Position numbers and translations under genes: made by a program
Part shown: positions 1,673 through 8,083 of the stretch, piece after piece
Layout: every line of letters begins with the position of its first letter
Position numbering within the stretch: the first letter of the stretch is position 1
Notes under the pieces: generated by a model
Told to the model about the DNA's origin: nothing
The model's database searches: none
The model's input: only the letters and a program-made list of their open reading frames with translations
Source of the DNA: a virus
DNA: 25,298 nt
Direction: 5' to 3' (one strand)
IMG/VR virus record: IMGVR_UViG_3300019888_000016
Coordinates: 1 to 25,298 of that record

Positions 1673-1789
1673 CCCGGTTCGATCTTGAATCGCGAGTCTA
1701 ACTACGCACCCACAACGCCCTGACCTGCCAGAACACGAAGACAGGTGCCACCAACCCACGGGCCCACAACACGCGAAAGGACCCACGAC

Positions 1790-2308
1790 ATGGCCATGGA
1801 CACCATGGAAGCGTCCGCCCGCGAAGCACGCATCATCGAACTCCGCTCACAACGCCTCTCCTACCGCAAAATCGCCGCCGAAGTCGGACTCTCCCACCAA
1901 CGCGTCGTCCAAATCTTCGAAGCAGCACGCGACCGCATCCCAGCCGAACGCCTCGCCGACCTCCGCGCCGAAGAAGCCGAGCTCGCCGACCGCGCCATCC
2001 AAAAACTCCTCCTCATCGCCGAAAACGACACCTACAACGAGCGCACCGGAAGCCACAACGTCTCCCCACGCACCCGAGTCGAAGCATGGGGCCACATCCG
2101 CATGTGGAGCGAGTCCAAGCGCAAACTGTTCGGCGCCGACGCCCCAACCAGACGCGAGATCACCGTCGTCACCGAAGAAACCATCGACCGCGAAATGCGC
2201 AGGCTCAACGAGCAGATCGCCGCACTCGACGCCCGCCCGGCCACCACGGAGAAGGCGCTGCCGAGTCCACTGGACTCCATGCCCGGCTTGCCGTACAGCA
2301 AGCACTAA
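1790..2308 (+). CDS. Helix-turn-helix protein, probable terminase small subunit
   Basis: ATG 1790 follows GAAAGGA with about 9 bases' spacing; the stop is TAA 2306-2308; 172 residues. Residues about 20-45 (SQRLSYRKIAAEVGLSHQRV) form a typical helix-turn-helix like sigma region 4 or small-terminase DNA-binding domains. The middle is an acidic, helical, coiled-coil-like stretch, followed by RTRVEAWGHIRMWSESKRKL and a Pro-rich tail. Small terminases bind the packaging site, oligomerise through such helices and hand DNA to the large subunit. The size and its place as the last plus-strand gene before terL (though 4.3 kb away) support that role. Alternatively it is a phage transcription regulator. 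The conserved-looking RMWSESKRKLFG stretch is seen in similar phage proteins, as far as I recall. Confidence 0.6.
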   Translation: MAMDTMEASAREARIIELRSQRLSYRKIAAEVGLSHQRVVQIFEAARDRIPAERLADLRAEEAELADRAIQKLLLIAENDTYNERTGSHNVSPRTRVEAWGHIRMWSESKRKLFGADAPTRREITVVTEETIDREMRRLNEQIAALDARPATTEKALPSPLDSMPGLPYSKH

Positions 2309-2402: not shown

Positions 2403-2631
2403 TCAGGCGAGAGCTGCTCGGGCCGCCTTCAGGTCGACCTCGAAGATGTCCGTGCGCCGCATCCCGTTCCACGCGGCGTACAGCGGATGCTTCTGGGTGA
2501 GCCACTCCCGCTTGACGCCCACCTCGCACCTCGTTGCTCGAAGCGATCTTCCTGCCCGGCAACACCTGGACGAAGGTGACGCTGCCGTCGCGATACGGGA
2601 TGCGGTCGTTGGCGGTCTCGGGTCCGTTCAT
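2403..2631 (-). pseudogene. Gene coupled to the recombinase, disrupted by a one-base frame step
   Basis: The minus-strand ATG at 2631-2629 overlaps the recombinase stop (ATGA), the classic sign of a coupled gene. It opens with MNGPETANDRIPYRDGSVTF and reads well to about NEV (2527). In that frame the remaining translation is Arg/Gly-rich and unnatural and runs on to about 2353. In the +1 frame a coherent sequence starts at the same point (GVKREWLTQKHPLYAAWNG ... MRRTDIFEVDLKAARAALA) and stops at TGA 2405-2403. The junction is an imperfect tandem repeat, GAGGTGC/GAGGTGG, around 2518-2532. Removing one 7-base unit, or one base, restores a single protein of about 75 residues. It could be a decayed gene, a sequencing error or a recoding site. 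The family is unknown. Confidence 0.55.
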
Positions 2632-3230
2632 AGCGTGCTCCTACGGTTGCCGATCTTGGTGATGCGTGCTGAGGGCGAGATGTGGTTCAGGTAGACGGCG
2701 GTCGTGTTGAGGTGGGTGTGACCGAGCTGCTGCTGGATCTCGGACACGGTGAAGCCGGACGATTCGAGCTCGGTCGCGTGGGTGTGTCGCAGACCGTGCG
2801 GGTGGACCCGCTTGTCGATGTCGGCGCGGGCGGCCATCCGCACCATCATGGCTCGCACGTAGCGCGGTGACAGGGCAGTCCCGTCCAGGGTGCAGAACAG
2901 CACCCGGCCCCTGATGCCGGCCGCGTGGCGGGTCTCCAGCCAGCGCACGACGTGCACCAGCGCGCCCTCATCAATGCCGGCGAACCGTGCGGCGTCACCC
3001 TTGCCATGCAGGATGCGGATGCTGCGCGCGTCCATGTCCACGTCGGACGGCTTCAGCGCGAGAGCCTCGGCCAGTCGTAGGCCAGCGCCGTACATGATGG
3101 CGATCAGGGCACGGTTGCGCACTCCGGTCGGTGCGCGCTTGCTGGGCGCGAGAACCAACGCTCGGGCCTCGTCCTTGGTCAGAATCTCGGCCGGGAACTT
3201 CACTCCGGCGTTGGTGGGCGGTGCTGTCAT
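2628..3230 (-). CDS. int: Tyrosine recombinase/integrase, catalytic domain only
   Basis: Minus-strand ATG at 3230-3228, with GGAG about 11 bases upstream; TGA at 2630-2628; 200 residues. All catalytic positions of the family are visible: R52 (in YGAGLRLAEA), K77 (HGKGD), H145 and R148 (HGLRH), H171 (LGHTHLNTT) and the nucleophile Y180. The enzyme cuts and rejoins DNA through a 3'-phosphotyrosine, which would integrate or excise this phage, or resolve dimers. Full phage integrases of this family are usually 300-400 residues with an arm-binding and a core-binding domain; only about 20 residues precede the catalytic fold here and no upstream frame encodes the missing part. It may depend on a partner or act on a simple site. 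Its stop overlaps the start of the next gene. A palindrome of recombinase- or repressor-site type lies 24 bp upstream. Confidence 0.85.
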   Translation of the reverse strand: MTAPPTNAGVKFPAEILTKDEARALVLAPSKRAPTGVRNRALIAIMYGAGLRLAEALALKPSDVDMDARSIRILHGKGDAARFAGIDEGALVHVVRWLETRHAAGIRGRVLFCTLDGTALSPRYVRAMMVRMAARADIDKRVHPHGLRHTHATELESSGFTVSEIQQQLGHTHLNTTAVYLNHISPSARITKIGNRRSTL

Positions 3231-3816: not shown

Positions 3817-3924
3817 TCAGAAGCAGTGGCAGACGTAGGCGAGCCGGCAGCCCTCGCACTCCTCCGGTGCGTCGGGCTGGTCGAACCCCAGCCGGTAGGC
3901 CAGAGCACGCAACGCCCGGATCAT
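3817..3924 (-). CDS. 35-residue Cys-rich miniprotein
   Basis: Minus-strand ATG at 3924-3922 overlaps the TGA of the preceding gene (ATGA, 3924-3921); stop TGA at 3819-3817. The product begins MIRALRALAYRLGFDQPDAP and ends CEGCRLAYVCHCF. C23, C26, C32 and C34 could bind one zinc ion. The overlap implies coupled translation with the 78-residue gene before it. The function is unknown; the Cys spacing resembles other small phage zinc-ribbon peptides. It is short enough to be missed by automatic callers. Confidence 0.5.
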   Translation of the reverse strand: MIRALRALAYRLGFDQPDAPEECEGCRLAYVCHCF

Positions 3925-4157
3925 CGCCGCGCCCCGACCGGGAAGTACACGCCGGCGTGCAGGGCACACAGGATGCGGTGCCGGCCGTCGACGTCCACTG
4001 CCTCACGGACACCGAGCTCGCTGCCGCACTGCCGGCGCCCGACCCGGATGTCGCACAGGTCGCCCTCGACGAGCGGGCCCAGGACGGGCCGCATCGGCAG
4101 GGTGAGGGCTGCGTCCTCGCGGTCCCAGTCGGCTCGGGGGCTGTATGCGGCGGTCAT
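3921..4157 (-). CDS. Hypothetical protein, 78 aa
   Basis: Minus-strand ATG at 4157-4155 with an excellent ribosome binding site (AGGAGG, 5 bases upstream); TGA at 3923-3921. The sequence starts MTAAYSPRADWDREDAAL and contains MRPVLGPLVEGDLCDIRVG, C53-GSE and an AVDVDGRHRILCALHAG stretch with scattered Cys/His that might coordinate metal. The next gene starts inside its stop codon. A -10-like TAGACT at 4187-4192 gives a leader of about 23 bases. It is the first gene of a three-gene minus-strand unit (4157 down to 3421). No family recognised. Confidence 0.55.
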   Translation of the reverse strand: MTAAYSPRADWDREDAALTLPMRPVLGPLVEGDLCDIRVGRRQCGSELGVREAVDVDGRHRILCALHAGVYFPVGARR

Positions 4158-4186
4158 GTCGTCCTCCTGCTCGGCGGTGTACCGTG

Positions 4187-4192
4187 AGTCTA
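4187..4192 (-). promoter_or_regulatory. -10-like element before the 4157 gene
   Basis: Minus-strand TAGACT fits the actinobacterial TANNNT pattern and would start a transcript near 4180, leaving room for the AGGAGG site before ATG 4157. No clear -35 is seen. CACCC-GTAT-GGGTG (4217-4230) just upstream could be a hairpin or operator. Confidence 0.35.
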
Positions 4193-4260
4193 GCCCTGAG
4201 CAGTGTTGGGGCATACACCCGTATGGGTGAGACAGGCAAGGAAGTGGCCGGTCAGGCCAT

Positions 4261-4389
4261 GATCACCAGTGATCCACTCACCCACTGGGAACGATCATGG
4301 GTGATCCACTACCCCGCAGGAGCGATCACCGAAGATCGACAGGTACTCGGGGATGATCACCCGTGATCGACTCCCCCCTGGGTTCGATC
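4261..4389. repeat. GATC-rich array of direct and inverted repeats
   Basis: Nine GATC tetramers occur in 129 bp (4261, 4271, 4293, 4303, 4324, 4334, 4355, 4365, 4386), mostly inside longer words. ATGATCACC occurs at 4259 and 4353, each followed by GTGATC(C/G)ACT; a further GTGATCCACT starts at 4301; CGATCAT occurs at 4292 and 4385 after GGGAA or GGGTT. Together they look like about three diverged units of roughly 40-50 bp. The array lies in the non-coding gap between the endonuclease gene (ends 4436) and the promoter of the 4157 gene. It could be a protein-binding cluster (operator, partition or replication site). No gene is seen in 4193-4435. Confidence 0.55.
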
Positions 4390-4435
4390 ATGCACCGGGA
4401 CCCCAGGGCAAGGGTTCGACCGACGGCGTGTCTTT

Positions 4436-5494
4436 TTAGCGCCCCGATTGAGGCCTTTCCAAGATCAACTCACGGTGCCGTTCAAGGTACACGGCAGCCG
4501 TCCGCAGGATCTCCACGTTCTCGTTCATGAACCCGAGTAGCTTGTCGCAGCTGTTGCACAGCAGGTCTCTCACGGCACCAGTCTGCGGGCATCGGTCGGC
4601 GCCCAGTTTCCTGACCTTTCCGGATGGCGTGACGACGGTCTCCGGGGACTTGCAGATGGCACACAGGTTGCACTGAGCGTCACGCATGGATCGGTATTCA
4701 CCATGGGTGAGACCGTCCGATCGAAGCGTGTGCTCAAGCGTGCAGTACTTCCGTGGCTGCCCTGCTCGCGCGGTCTGTGGGATGACGGCTCCGCACCAGC
4801 AGATTTGGTAGAGCGGCTTGGCCTCTTGGGTGCGCTCCCAGAGTTGGGTGACGCGCTGTCGGGTAAGTCCGAGTCGCTGGCCGATGGCTTTGAAGGTGGC
4901 ACCTTCTCCACGTAGTTTGAGGATCAGGGCGGTGCGTGGCGCCATGTGACTGTCGTCTGTGGCGCCGACGGGTTCAGCGGATCGCGGCCGTGGGATGTTG
5001 TGGATGCGCGGCGCCCGTCGGTGCTTTCTGAGGTAGTCGGCTGCCAAGATGAACGTCTGCGGATCGTCTCGGCCGAGCCCTAGTGCGAGGTTGCACTTGC
5101 CGCAGAGGAGTCCACGCGTGTCGCCGCATGCGTGACAGTGGTCAACGCTGAGCTTCTTAGTGTCGCCGAGGATGCCTGTTTGCGATTCCGGCATCCGACA
5201 GATCGCGCATACGCTGTTTTGCTCAGCGGCGAGCCTGTAGTACTGCTCCCGGCTCACCTGCGCACCCCTGTTGCAATCTTTGCAGAGGGCAGCCGTCCGT
5301 GGATTTTCGTAGACCTGGCCGCACAGTCCACATGCTGTGCGGAGTTTGCCTCGGACCTTCGTCCTGACCGCGACTGAGCGTTCGATGAAGGGCTTGTAAG
5401 CACTTGGTCGGTGTTCCGGCTTGCAGTACTTCCGACGTCGCCCAGCATGGGGATGTTCGGCGAGTTCGGCGCCACACCAGCAATGTCTAGGCAC
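4436..5494 (-). CDS. Tandem endonuclease VII/HNH-type protein with central HTH
   Basis: The frame is open from 5776, but the first 94 codons read as low-complexity non-coding sequence. GTG at 5494-5492 is preferred because -10-like TATTAT ends 6 bases upstream, predicting a leaderless mRNA. The product is 352 residues, stop TAA 4438-4436. Order: CWCG/RKYC/EH zinc motif (5-28); Cys pairs C55/C58 and C71/C74; endonuclease VII-like domain with C96/C99, the catalytic D118-H119-C-H121 and C131/C134; helix-turn-helix (about 190-221, LILKLRGEGATFKAIGQRLG); a second CWCG/RKYC/EH motif (233-255); a second endonuclease VII-like domain with C278/C281, D300-R-C-P303 and C313/C316. The zinc-plus-nuclease unit is thus duplicated, and the second copy has lost both catalytic histidines. 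T4 endonuclease VII cleaves Holliday junctions and branched DNA; phage relatives also act as homing nucleases. Location between terS and terL suits a mobile or packaging-linked nuclease. Confidence 0.8.
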   Translation of the reverse strand: MPRHCWCGAELAEHPHAGRRRKYCKPEHRPSAYKPFIERSVAVRTKVRGKLRTACGLCGQVYENPRTAALCKDCNRGAQVSREQYYRLAAEQNSVCAICRMPESQTGILGDTKKLSVDHCHACGDTRGLLCGKCNLALGLGRDDPQTFILAADYLRKHRRAPRIHNIPRPRSAEPVGATDDSHMAPRTALILKLRGEGATFKAIGQRLGLTRQRVTQLWERTQEAKPLYQICWCGAVIPQTARAGQPRKYCTLEHTLRSDGLTHGEYRSMRDAQCNLCAICKSPETVVTPSGKVRKLGADRCPQTGAVRDLLCNSCDKLLGFMNENVEILRTAAVYLERHRELILERPQSGR

Positions 5495-6190: not shown

Positions 6191-6607
6191 TCAGTTGGCT
6201 TGGTTGAGGACGCGGGCACCGTCGGCGCGTAGACACCCGCAGGACTTCGATCTGCCCGACAGCAGGTGGCCGGCGACTACGACCTTCTCGGTTCCGCAGT
6301 CGCAGCGGACCTGGGCCAGTCGGTTGCGGCTACCGGGTTCGGAGTACGGGATCGTCAGCGCGGTCAGGCGCCCGAACCTGGCGCCGGGCACGACTTCGGT
6401 GTCGCTGGGCGGTGCGAGGTCGGACCACGTTCTGCCTCGTCCGGGCAGTGTCCCTCGGCAGCCGCAGGACTTCACGTGGCCTGAGGTGAGCCTGGACCGG
6501 CCGATGGTTTTCTCGACGCCGCATTCGCAGCGGCAGGGGACTTTGCCGCGTCGGACGGTGCGGTCGAGCACCGTCAGGTTGCCGTAGCGGGCGCCCAGGA
6601 GTTCCAC
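6191..6607 (-). CDS. Protein with two C-x-C-x-C-G/SCGC zinc-binding repeats
   Basis: GTG at 6607-6605 is chosen because -10-like TACAGT lies 6 bases upstream (leaderless arrangement). Stop at 6193-6191, 138 residues. The protein is two copies of one module: G-A-R-Y/F-G-x-L-T, 15-25 variable residues, a CxC(xC)G knuckle, then a Leu-x-SG...KSCGC knuckle. Copy 1 uses C25/C27/C29 and C48/C50; copy 2 uses C102/C104 and C123/C125. Such modules occur in phage and homing-endonuclease-associated proteins (often with AP2 or HNH domains) and are thought to bind DNA through zinc. There is no nuclease motif here, so this looks like a stand-alone DNA-binding form. It is divergent from terL with 45 bp between, placing its promoter next to the terL ribosome binding site. 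Confidence 0.65.
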   Translation of the reverse strand: MELLGARYGNLTVLDRTVRRGKVPCRCECGVEKTIGRSRLTSGHVKSCGCRGTLPGRGRTWSDLAPPSDTEVVPGARFGRLTALTIPYSEPGSRNRLAQVRCDCGTEKVVVAGHLLSGRSKSCGCLRADGARVLNQAN

Positions 6608-6613
6608 ACCCCC

Positions 6614-6619
6614 ACTGTA
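6614..6619 (-). promoter_or_regulatory. -10 element of the zinc-repeat gene, leaderless arrangement
   Basis: Minus-strand TACAGT with 6 bases to GTG 6607. No recognisable -35. Spacing matches the elements at 5501-5506 and 1667-1672. Confidence 0.4.
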
Positions 6620-6652
6620 CGACCCAAAACAGTATTGGGGAAGGGGGGTGTG

Positions 6653-8083
6653 ATGGCCGAGCCCCCGATCTACGACGGCGACCCCGAGAAGCTGCGGCAA
6701 CTGGCGGAACTCCGGGCGGCGTTGGCCGCGAAGCAGCGGGAGATCGCCGCGAACTCACCCCCTCGACCTCGGCCATGGCATGACATCGCCAGGCCGAACC
6801 AACTACCTCCGCCGGGAGACTGGTCGACGTGGCTAGTACTTTCTGGGCGCGGATTCGGGAAGACCAGGCTTGCATCCGAGTGGCTCGCCGAACAGGCCGC
6901 TACCAATCCGAACACGGAATGGGCGATCGTCGCGCCGACGTGGCGTGACTGCCAGAAGACGTGCATCGAGGGCGACGCCGGGCTGTTGAAGGCTCTGCTC
7001 CCCGGCGAGCTCGACGGCATGAACGTGTCCAACCTGCAGGTGCGGTTGACGAACGGCTCCCGCGTCTACGGCTACTCGGCTGACCGTCCGGACCGGCTGC
7101 GCGGGTCGTCGCTCTCCGGGGCATGGGTGGACGAGGCAGCGGCGATGCCGCTGGTCGATGATCTGTTCGCCGACGCACTCGTACCGGCGCTGCGCATCGG
7201 GGAGAACCCGCGTGTCCTGGTCACCACCACTCCGCGTCCGATCCCGTTCCTGCGCAAACTGCTCGACTCCGACGACGGCTCAGTGGCTGTGGTTCGAGGA
7301 ACCACCTGGGACAACGCCGCCAACCTGTCCAAAGTCGCATTGGCGCGAATGAGGGCCACTTATGAAGGCACCCGGAGGGGACTCCAGGAGCTGGAAGGCA
7401 TATTGCTTTCCGATGTGGAAGGCGCTCTGTGGACACGGGAGATCATTGACTCCTCCCGCGTATTGAAGGCTCCCGAATTGGTGCGGATCGTGGTGGCGAT
7501 CGACCCTGCTGTCACCAGCGGCGAGAAGTCTGACCACACGGGCATCGTAGTCGCTGGCCGGTCTGTCGATGGACACTTCTACATCCTTGAAGACTGTTCG
7601 CTGAAGGCGTCCCCGGATGCCTGTATGCGGAAGGCTGTTAATGCGTACCGCCGCTGGCGGGCTGATCGGATCGTCGGCGAAGTAAACAACGGTGGCGACT
7701 ATATTGAGCGGACTCTCCGCACGGTCGATGAGACGGTGCCGTACAAGAGTGTCCGGGCAACCCGAGGCAAGTTGAAGCGCGCTGAGCCGATCTCGGCACT
7801 GTGGGAGCAGGGACGTGCTCACATCGTGGGGGTGCAAGCGGCACTGGAAGACGAGATGTGCTCCTACACCATCGACGCGGTGTCCGACCCGAAGAAAACG
7901 GGCATGCATGACGACCGACTGGACGCGATGGTGTGGGCGGCGACCGAACTTCACGTGGGTGGCGCATCGGCCATGGGGTACCTGTTCGCTATCTCAACCA
8001 TGTGCACCAAGTGCGAGTGTCCAAACAGCCGGCGGGTCACCGCGTGTGTCGAGTGCGGCGAACCGCTATCTAAGTGCGCCTGA
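6653..8083 (+). CDS. terL: Terminase large subunit with C-terminal zinc-ribbon extension
   Basis: ATG 6653 follows a G-rich ribosome binding site (GGAAGGGGGG); 476 residues to TGA 8081-8083. The N-terminal ATPase has Walker A GRGFGKT (65-71), Walker B ending in D160-E161 (SGAWVDEAAAM) and the coupling motif TTTPRP (191-196). The C-terminal RNase H-like nuclease has D284 (VAIDPAV), E343 (IVGEVNNGGDYI) and HDDRLD (419-424). This motor packages DNA into the prohead and cuts it at headful or site-specific ends. After the nuclease comes an unusual tail with C451-x2-C454-x-C456, C465-x2-C468 and C475, resembling a zinc ribbon that most large terminases lack. It is the first gene of the plus-strand structural operon, separated from the probable terS by the minus-strand island. 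Confidence 0.93.
   Translation: MAEPPIYDGDPEKLRQLAELRAALAAKQREIAANSPPRPRPWHDIARPNQLPPPGDWSTWLVLSGRGFGKTRLASEWLAEQAATNPNTEWAIVAPTWRDCQKTCIEGDAGLLKALLPGELDGMNVSNLQVRLTNGSRVYGYSADRPDRLRGSSLSGAWVDEAAAMPLVDDLFADALVPALRIGENPRVLVTTTPRPIPFLRKLLDSDDGSVAVVRGTTWDNAANLSKVALARMRATYEGTRRGLQELEGILLSDVEGALWTREIIDSSRVLKAPELVRIVVAIDPAVTSGEKSDHTGIVVAGRSVDGHFYILEDCSLKASPDACMRKAVNAYRRWRADRIVGEVNNGGDYIERTLRTVDETVPYKSVRATRGKLKRAEPISALWEQGRAHIVGVQAALEDEMCSYTIDAVSDPKKTGMHDDRLDAMVWAATELHVGGASAMGYLFAISTMCTKCECPNSRRVTACVECGEPLSKCA

Follow-up and report, generated by a model that had tools for sequence, protein, structure and literature searches.

A phage endonuclease VII-family protein with two fused nuclease units, the second of which lacks its catalytic residues

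The window analyzed here (the whole stretch of 25,298 nt, IMG/VR record IMGVR_UViG_3300019888_000016) carries a gene for an endonuclease VII-family protein whose single chain holds two nuclease units, each preceded by a zinc finger, and a helix-turn-helix (HTH) between them (Table 1). The translation has zero internal stops, and the codon-position GC of the gene (0.63/0.51/0.71) resembles that of a real gene such as terL (0.65/0.51/0.77).

Table 1. Features of the two-unit endonuclease gene and its surroundings in the window
Feature	Residues	Position	Strand	Basis or remark
Two-unit endonuclease VII gene	1-352	4436..5494	(-)	352 aa, GTG start
N-terminal CxCG..YC..EH finger	5-28	5411..5482	(-)	Sequence; conserved in L032 and L024
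Second Cys4 zinc-ribbon-like pair, CxxC..CxxC	55-74	5273..5332	(-)	Sequence; missing from L024 unit 1
Endonuclease VII unit 1, catalytic residues intact	76-157	5024..5269	(-)	Pfam, model, alignment
Unit 1 catalytic D118-H-C-H121	118-121	5132..5143	(-)	N135 at 5090-5092
Sigma-region-4-like HTH	184-225	4820..4945	(-)	Pfam and model
Second CxCG..YC..EH finger	232-255	4730..4801	(-)	Sequence, half-half alignment
Endonuclease VII unit 2, catalytic residues lost, zinc site kept	~259-338	4481..4720	(-)	Pfam, alignment, model
Unit 2 degraded site D300-R-C-P303	300-303	4586..4597	(-)	N62-equivalent D317 at 4544-4546
Conserved element AACCCTTGCC..GATC..AGGGGGG..GATCA		4346..4416	(-)	Directly downstream of the endonuclease gene
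AP2-like two-repeat zinc DNA-binding protein		6191..6700	(-)	phrog_374, 'HNH endonuclease'; no nuclease part here

The whole protein matches PF02945 (Endonuclease_7) in two stretches (E = 8.4e-31), which lie in one frame at 5024-5260 (71.9 bits, E = 8e-22) and 4481-4720 (52.6 bits, E = 8.5e-16), both above the curated cut-off of 23.6 bits. When one half of the protein is compared with the other by BLASTP, they align across finger and nuclease (E = 1e-16, 26% identity); the chain contains two homologous nuclease units, as a single-chain pseudodimer would. The HTH between them is of the sigma-70 region-4 type (PF04545, E = 3.4e-5, slightly below the cut-off), and a model of the chain places three helices at aa 186-225. 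An initial annotation, drawn from the letters of the sequence, had described a zinc motif and an endonuclease VII domain that each occur twice, with an HTH in between, and both descriptions hold.

Endonuclease VII enzymes are homodimers, with each subunit cutting one strand. Unit 1 of the window protein has equivalents of D40, H41, H43 and N62, as D118-H119-C120-H121 plus N135. The corresponding positions of unit 2 read D300-R301-C302-P303 and D317, so that the H41, H43 and N62 equivalents are all changed and the residue set of an active unit is lacking, while zinc cysteines are kept in eight of eight positions (C96, C99, C131 and C134 in unit 1; C278, C281, C313 and C316 in unit 2). The catalytic Asp-His-Cys-His of the first unit, and the loss of both histidines from the second with its four zinc cysteines in place, had been reported correctly in the initial annotation; the third change, D317, had been overlooked. 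The T4 N62D variant belongs to the inactive mutants that have been crystallized. D317, within the sequence CNSCD, is the same change as in that crystallized mutant (1e7l), which is itself among the sequence and fold matches.

Among near-invariant residues, the losses in unit 2 are confined to catalytic ones. We aligned 46 Endo VII units collected in this analysis and took the 13 columns with at least 96% conservation; unit 2 departs from exactly three of them (H, H and N) while keeping the other ten, the zinc cysteines, D and R included. Three random losses among 13 columns would fall on those three with a chance of 1 in 286, a post hoc figure that concerns one sequence, and the window type of unit 2 loss (DRCP...D) was seen in that sequence only. 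Because the first histidine (H41) is conserved in all 313 aligned Endo VII-motif proteins of the F-CphI study (PMC6083498), its absence from a natural unit is out of the ordinary.

A separate model of unit 2 (pLDDT 85) has a beta-beta-alpha core. In fold comparisons it matches T4 endonuclease VII first, with E values from 8.5e-4 to 4.6e-3, and Hpy99I next; the Z-scores are 6.0 and 4.9. This endonuclease VII fold excludes the possibility, named alongside the initial annotation, that the second unit is unrelated. The top PDB sequence match of the whole protein is Hpy99I (3fc3, E = 2e-5). The whole-chain model has a pLDDT of 72.5 and a pTM of 0.55 and does not reliably give the packing of unit against unit. 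Unit 2 aligns to residues 3-102 of the 157 of T4 endonuclease VII and the window chain ends shortly afterwards; a C-terminal dimer domain of the T4 type is absent, as unit 2 lies near the chain end and unit 1 is followed by the linker and HTH.

Relatives with the same two-unit plan, which the initial annotation had proposed to look for, do exist. A terminase-anchored scan of IMG/VR yielded seven related phage contigs that encode this plan in the same place, upstream of the terminase and on the opposite strand; the protein is fused in L032 and L024 and divided between two frames in L021, G010, G011, G012 and G015. The near relatives of the window do not have the gene. The L032 protein is read in one frame and has both sites intact (DHCH...N twice), and one dead site is therefore neither a rule of the plan nor needed by it. 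The L024 protein, also in one frame, is in its residues the mirror image of the window protein: unit 1 is degraded (DYCS, with further loss of R and G and without the second zinc pair) and unit 2 is intact (DHDH...N). The initial annotation had held that an intact second site in relatives would mark the window's change as an error. Such sites are found in L032 and in the two-frame forms, but the reciprocal loss in L024, together with the loss of only catalytic near-invariant residues from the window's unit 2, makes a sequencing error unlikely. A tree of the units (~73 columns) has 30-67% support at its key nodes and does not settle whether a single duplication gave rise to all unit 1s and unit 2s.

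In L021 and the near-identical G010, G011, G012 and G015 (the G010 group), both sites are intact, while unit 1 and the HTH-unit 2 part lie in different, overlapping frames. The overlap occurs at the same place in all of them, and the stop codon of unit 1 (TAA in G015, TGA in the others) falls within the HTH codons. No ATG, GTG or TTG is found near the HTH for the second open reading frame in these contigs; a CTG is conserved there. An overlap of +1 between unit 1 and HTH-unit 2, with the conserved CTG, is seen in L021 (3629-4503, minus strand) and in L042-L045. The two-frame form may reflect a +1 frameshift, a CTG-started second subunit (a split heterodimer) or damage. In L021 and the G010 group alike, unit 1 ends in '..QVA*'; this does not prove programmed frameshifting, because every shift of that kind would meet the stop inside the conserved KWRE codons. 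In L021 the HTH has a further frame break of 1 nt. HTH-unit 2 differs little among members of the G010 group, and most of these changes are nonsynonymous, as if weakly constrained; between L021 and the G010 group, third codon positions differ most, as expected for genes long under selection.

The gene is an optional occupant of its site. The closest phages to L032 by terminase and portal are L010-L013, and their whole records contain no PF02945 match. In an alignment with L011, L012 and L013, the L032 gene lies right after a terminator-like hairpin and right before a conserved AACCCTTGCC...GATCA...GGGGGG element, and at the empty site of L011-L013 these two flanks nearly meet. With the gene present in L032 and absent from L011-L013 between matching flanks, it is optional at a fixed spot, which would be in keeping with a free-standing homing endonuclease. 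Elements of this kind lie after the gene in the window, L024, L021 and L032, and the element is kept at the empty site in L011-L013. On the phage tree, the gene-bearing lineages are scattered, a pattern compatible with gain and loss. Between the endonuclease gene and the open reading frame at 3921-4214, the window also has a cluster of GATCA/TGATC repeats (GATCACCAGTGATC and similar, 4230-4416), likely an operator array, and comparable clusters occur in L011-L013, L032 and L024.

Several neighboring genes have features of their own. The protein encoded at 6191-6700 (minus strand) contains two CxCG..SCGC repeats, and a phrog_374 match lies beside the endonuclease gene in L021 and L016 too; the protein also occurs in relatives that lack the endonuclease gene. 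A short tyrosine recombinase of 200 aa (2628-3230, minus strand; Phage_integrase, E = 1.4e-35) is without the usual N-terminal domain, and its XerC-like matches span the catalytic part only. An HTH protein at 1745-2308 (plus strand) matches phrog_645, labelled 'RNase E' (E = 1e-16); from its place upstream of the terminase, it would also fit a small terminase subunit. The terL and portal genes are uninterrupted in the window. In relatives they carry in-frame inserts, 150-410 codons long and intein-like at their ends (C...HN), placed in terL at aa ~75 (L018, L019, L020 and L022), aa 164 (L024 and L025) or aa ~433 (L021 and L023) and in the portal gene at aa 243 (L007, L017 and L024). Group I introns were rejected as an explanation of these interruptions, there being no Rfam match and the inserts being in frame with intein-like ends. 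A different Endo VII protein, with a row of repeated C..C..H fingers followed by one C-terminal nuclease unit, is encoded downstream of the portal in L021 (10632-11549, plus strand) and L009 (4259-5185, plus strand).

Beyond this phage group, the two-unit plan was not encountered in the collections searched with short patterns, a type of scan that overlooks distant relatives: 749 records of a phage collection match, and in none does a single place cover 80% of the query; plasmids (14 records) gave none. In 396 Actinomycetota genomes, no Endo VII match proved to be a two-unit protein in one open frame, and only adjacent separate genes were seen. Two such adjacent Endo VII genes are present in 7 of the 29 genomes with matches above the cut-off (L149-L155, in the genomes G164, G186, G061, G075, G110, G093 and G121; the second gene of G093 is without the first zinc knuckle). 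An alignment-based contig scan returned the finger only, in an unrelated protein (L040), and a portal-anchored scan gave no match. The 39 MCP-anchored records searched had no PF02945 match, which is a weak test, as control genomes gave none either.

Taking these observations together, our tentative reading, which we place somewhat short of probable, is that the window gene encodes a mobile, free-standing homing-type endonuclease of the Endo VII (F-CphI/Hpy99I) kind that acts as a single-chain pseudodimer in which unit 1 alone cuts, with a nick as product. The two fused units would form the pseudo-twofold nuclease that ordinary Endo VII and Hpy99I proteins make as homodimers. The finger of each unit would bind DNA and the HTH of the linker would add recognition, so that fingers and HTH together read the target. 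Unit 1 would cut its strand, while unit 2, with its zinc-held fold, would act as a non-cutting partner that positions the DNA. Since only unit 1 is competent and unit 2 would hold without cutting, a strand-specific nick is the expected product. On this reading the window protein would probably work as a nickase, and the suggestion of the initial annotation, one chain that mimics the dimer and has a single nicking-competent site, is plausible. Nicking is known for several phage homing enzymes, for example I-PfoP3I (PMC3428280).

The dead unit may instead have no tuned role at all. Homing endonuclease genes are known to decay, and a two-unit endonuclease that was inherited or recently acquired could be losing the function of unit 2 in the window and of unit 1 in L024. 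The additional HTH frame break in L021, the structural residues and second zinc pair lost from L024 unit 1, the few and mostly nonsynonymous differences in the G010 group and the restriction of the window-type loss to a single sequence all agree with decay. However, the window gene has an uninterrupted frame and normal GC by codon position, the losses from its unit 2 are of catalytic residues and of no other near-invariant residue, and third codon positions are the most variable between lineages; decay is a serious alternative that we nevertheless consider unlikely. An improbable explanation is that two chains pair by their unit 1s and cut both strands in the ordinary way, with unit 2 and the HTH serving solely as a recognition module. 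Unit 1 is complete, family members such as Hpy99I work as dimers, and unit 2 keeps its zinc fold and fingers, all of which would suit such an arrangement, but the intact site of L024 is that of unit 2 and both sites are intact in L032, and unit 2 is therefore not a fixed recognition module across the family.

Membership in the endonuclease VII family and a position adjoining the terminase/portal block would also fit a single-chain form of a T4 gp49-like resolvase that clears Holliday junctions or branched DNA for packaging. Several observations make this quite improbable. The gene is optional among close relatives, and RusA is encoded elsewhere in two gene-bearing relatives, G015 and G016, the latter with three further Endo VII-domain matches (for the window phage, the view of its own resolvase complement is that of the 25-kb record). 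The presence of a second resolvase has been used as an argument that such proteins are homing endonucleases, and a C-terminal position of the motif is typical of the homing endonuclease clade (PMC6083498); in the window protein, the nuclease motif likewise lies C-terminal to DNA-binding parts rather than at the N-terminus, and the alignment to T4 stops near residue 102 of 157, short of a T4-type dimer domain. The extra fingers and HTH point to sequence recognition, and an enzyme with one site would not yield paired cuts. A defence role was set aside; its sole support was a generic type II REase profile match on unit 1.

A broader proposal, rather unlikely as a whole, is that these proteins are a natural family of single-chain Endo VII heterodimers in which either fused site can be switched off (unit 2 in the window, unit 1 in L024), so that a homing endonuclease that cuts both strands becomes a strand-specific nickase; related phages would have the fused form or the two-frame form (heterodimer or +1 frameshift). 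If true, a fused chain whose relatives have both sites, the first only or the second only would be a ready series in which to study the passage from dimeric cutter to nickase, and the single-chain route of LAGLIDADG homing enzymes would extend to the Endo VII fold. The findings also suggest that the label 'endonuclease VII' on such phage genes need not imply a resolvase.

Among known systems, single-chain LAGLIDADG homing endonucleases consist of two fused halves that replace a dimer, as here, but they are unrelated proteins and the likeness is an analogy only. The likeness to nicking HNH homing endonucleases such as I-PfoP3I, phage homing enzymes with a single unit that nick one strand (PMC3428280), is likewise one of analogy. 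T4 endonuclease VII (gp49; 1en7, and 1e7l with N62D) shares the catalytic fold, and unit 2 of the window protein has a natural equivalent of N62D; the T4 enzyme differs in having one unit per chain, an N-terminal nuclease and a C-terminal dimer domain, and it resolves junctions. In Hpy99I (3fc3), a beta-beta-alpha-Me restriction endonuclease, the nuclease domain lies at the C-terminus of each unit, as in the window protein, but each chain has one unit rather than two; no methylase partner was identified among the neighboring window genes searched. The tandem Endo VII genes of Mycobacterium phage Koko (gp048/gp050) and of the seven genomes named above likewise place two units side by side, but as two genes with different fingers, no HTH between them and mostly both sites intact, whereas the window has one fused gene. 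F-CphI, a free-standing homing endonuclease of cyanophage S-PM2, has its Endo VII motif C-terminal to a DNA-binding sequence and is an optional phage gene beside conserved genes, like the window protein; its single unit retains the catalytic residues, and the enzyme nicks one strand, then the other (PMC6083498), whereas the window protein has two units and an HTH, with one unit dead.
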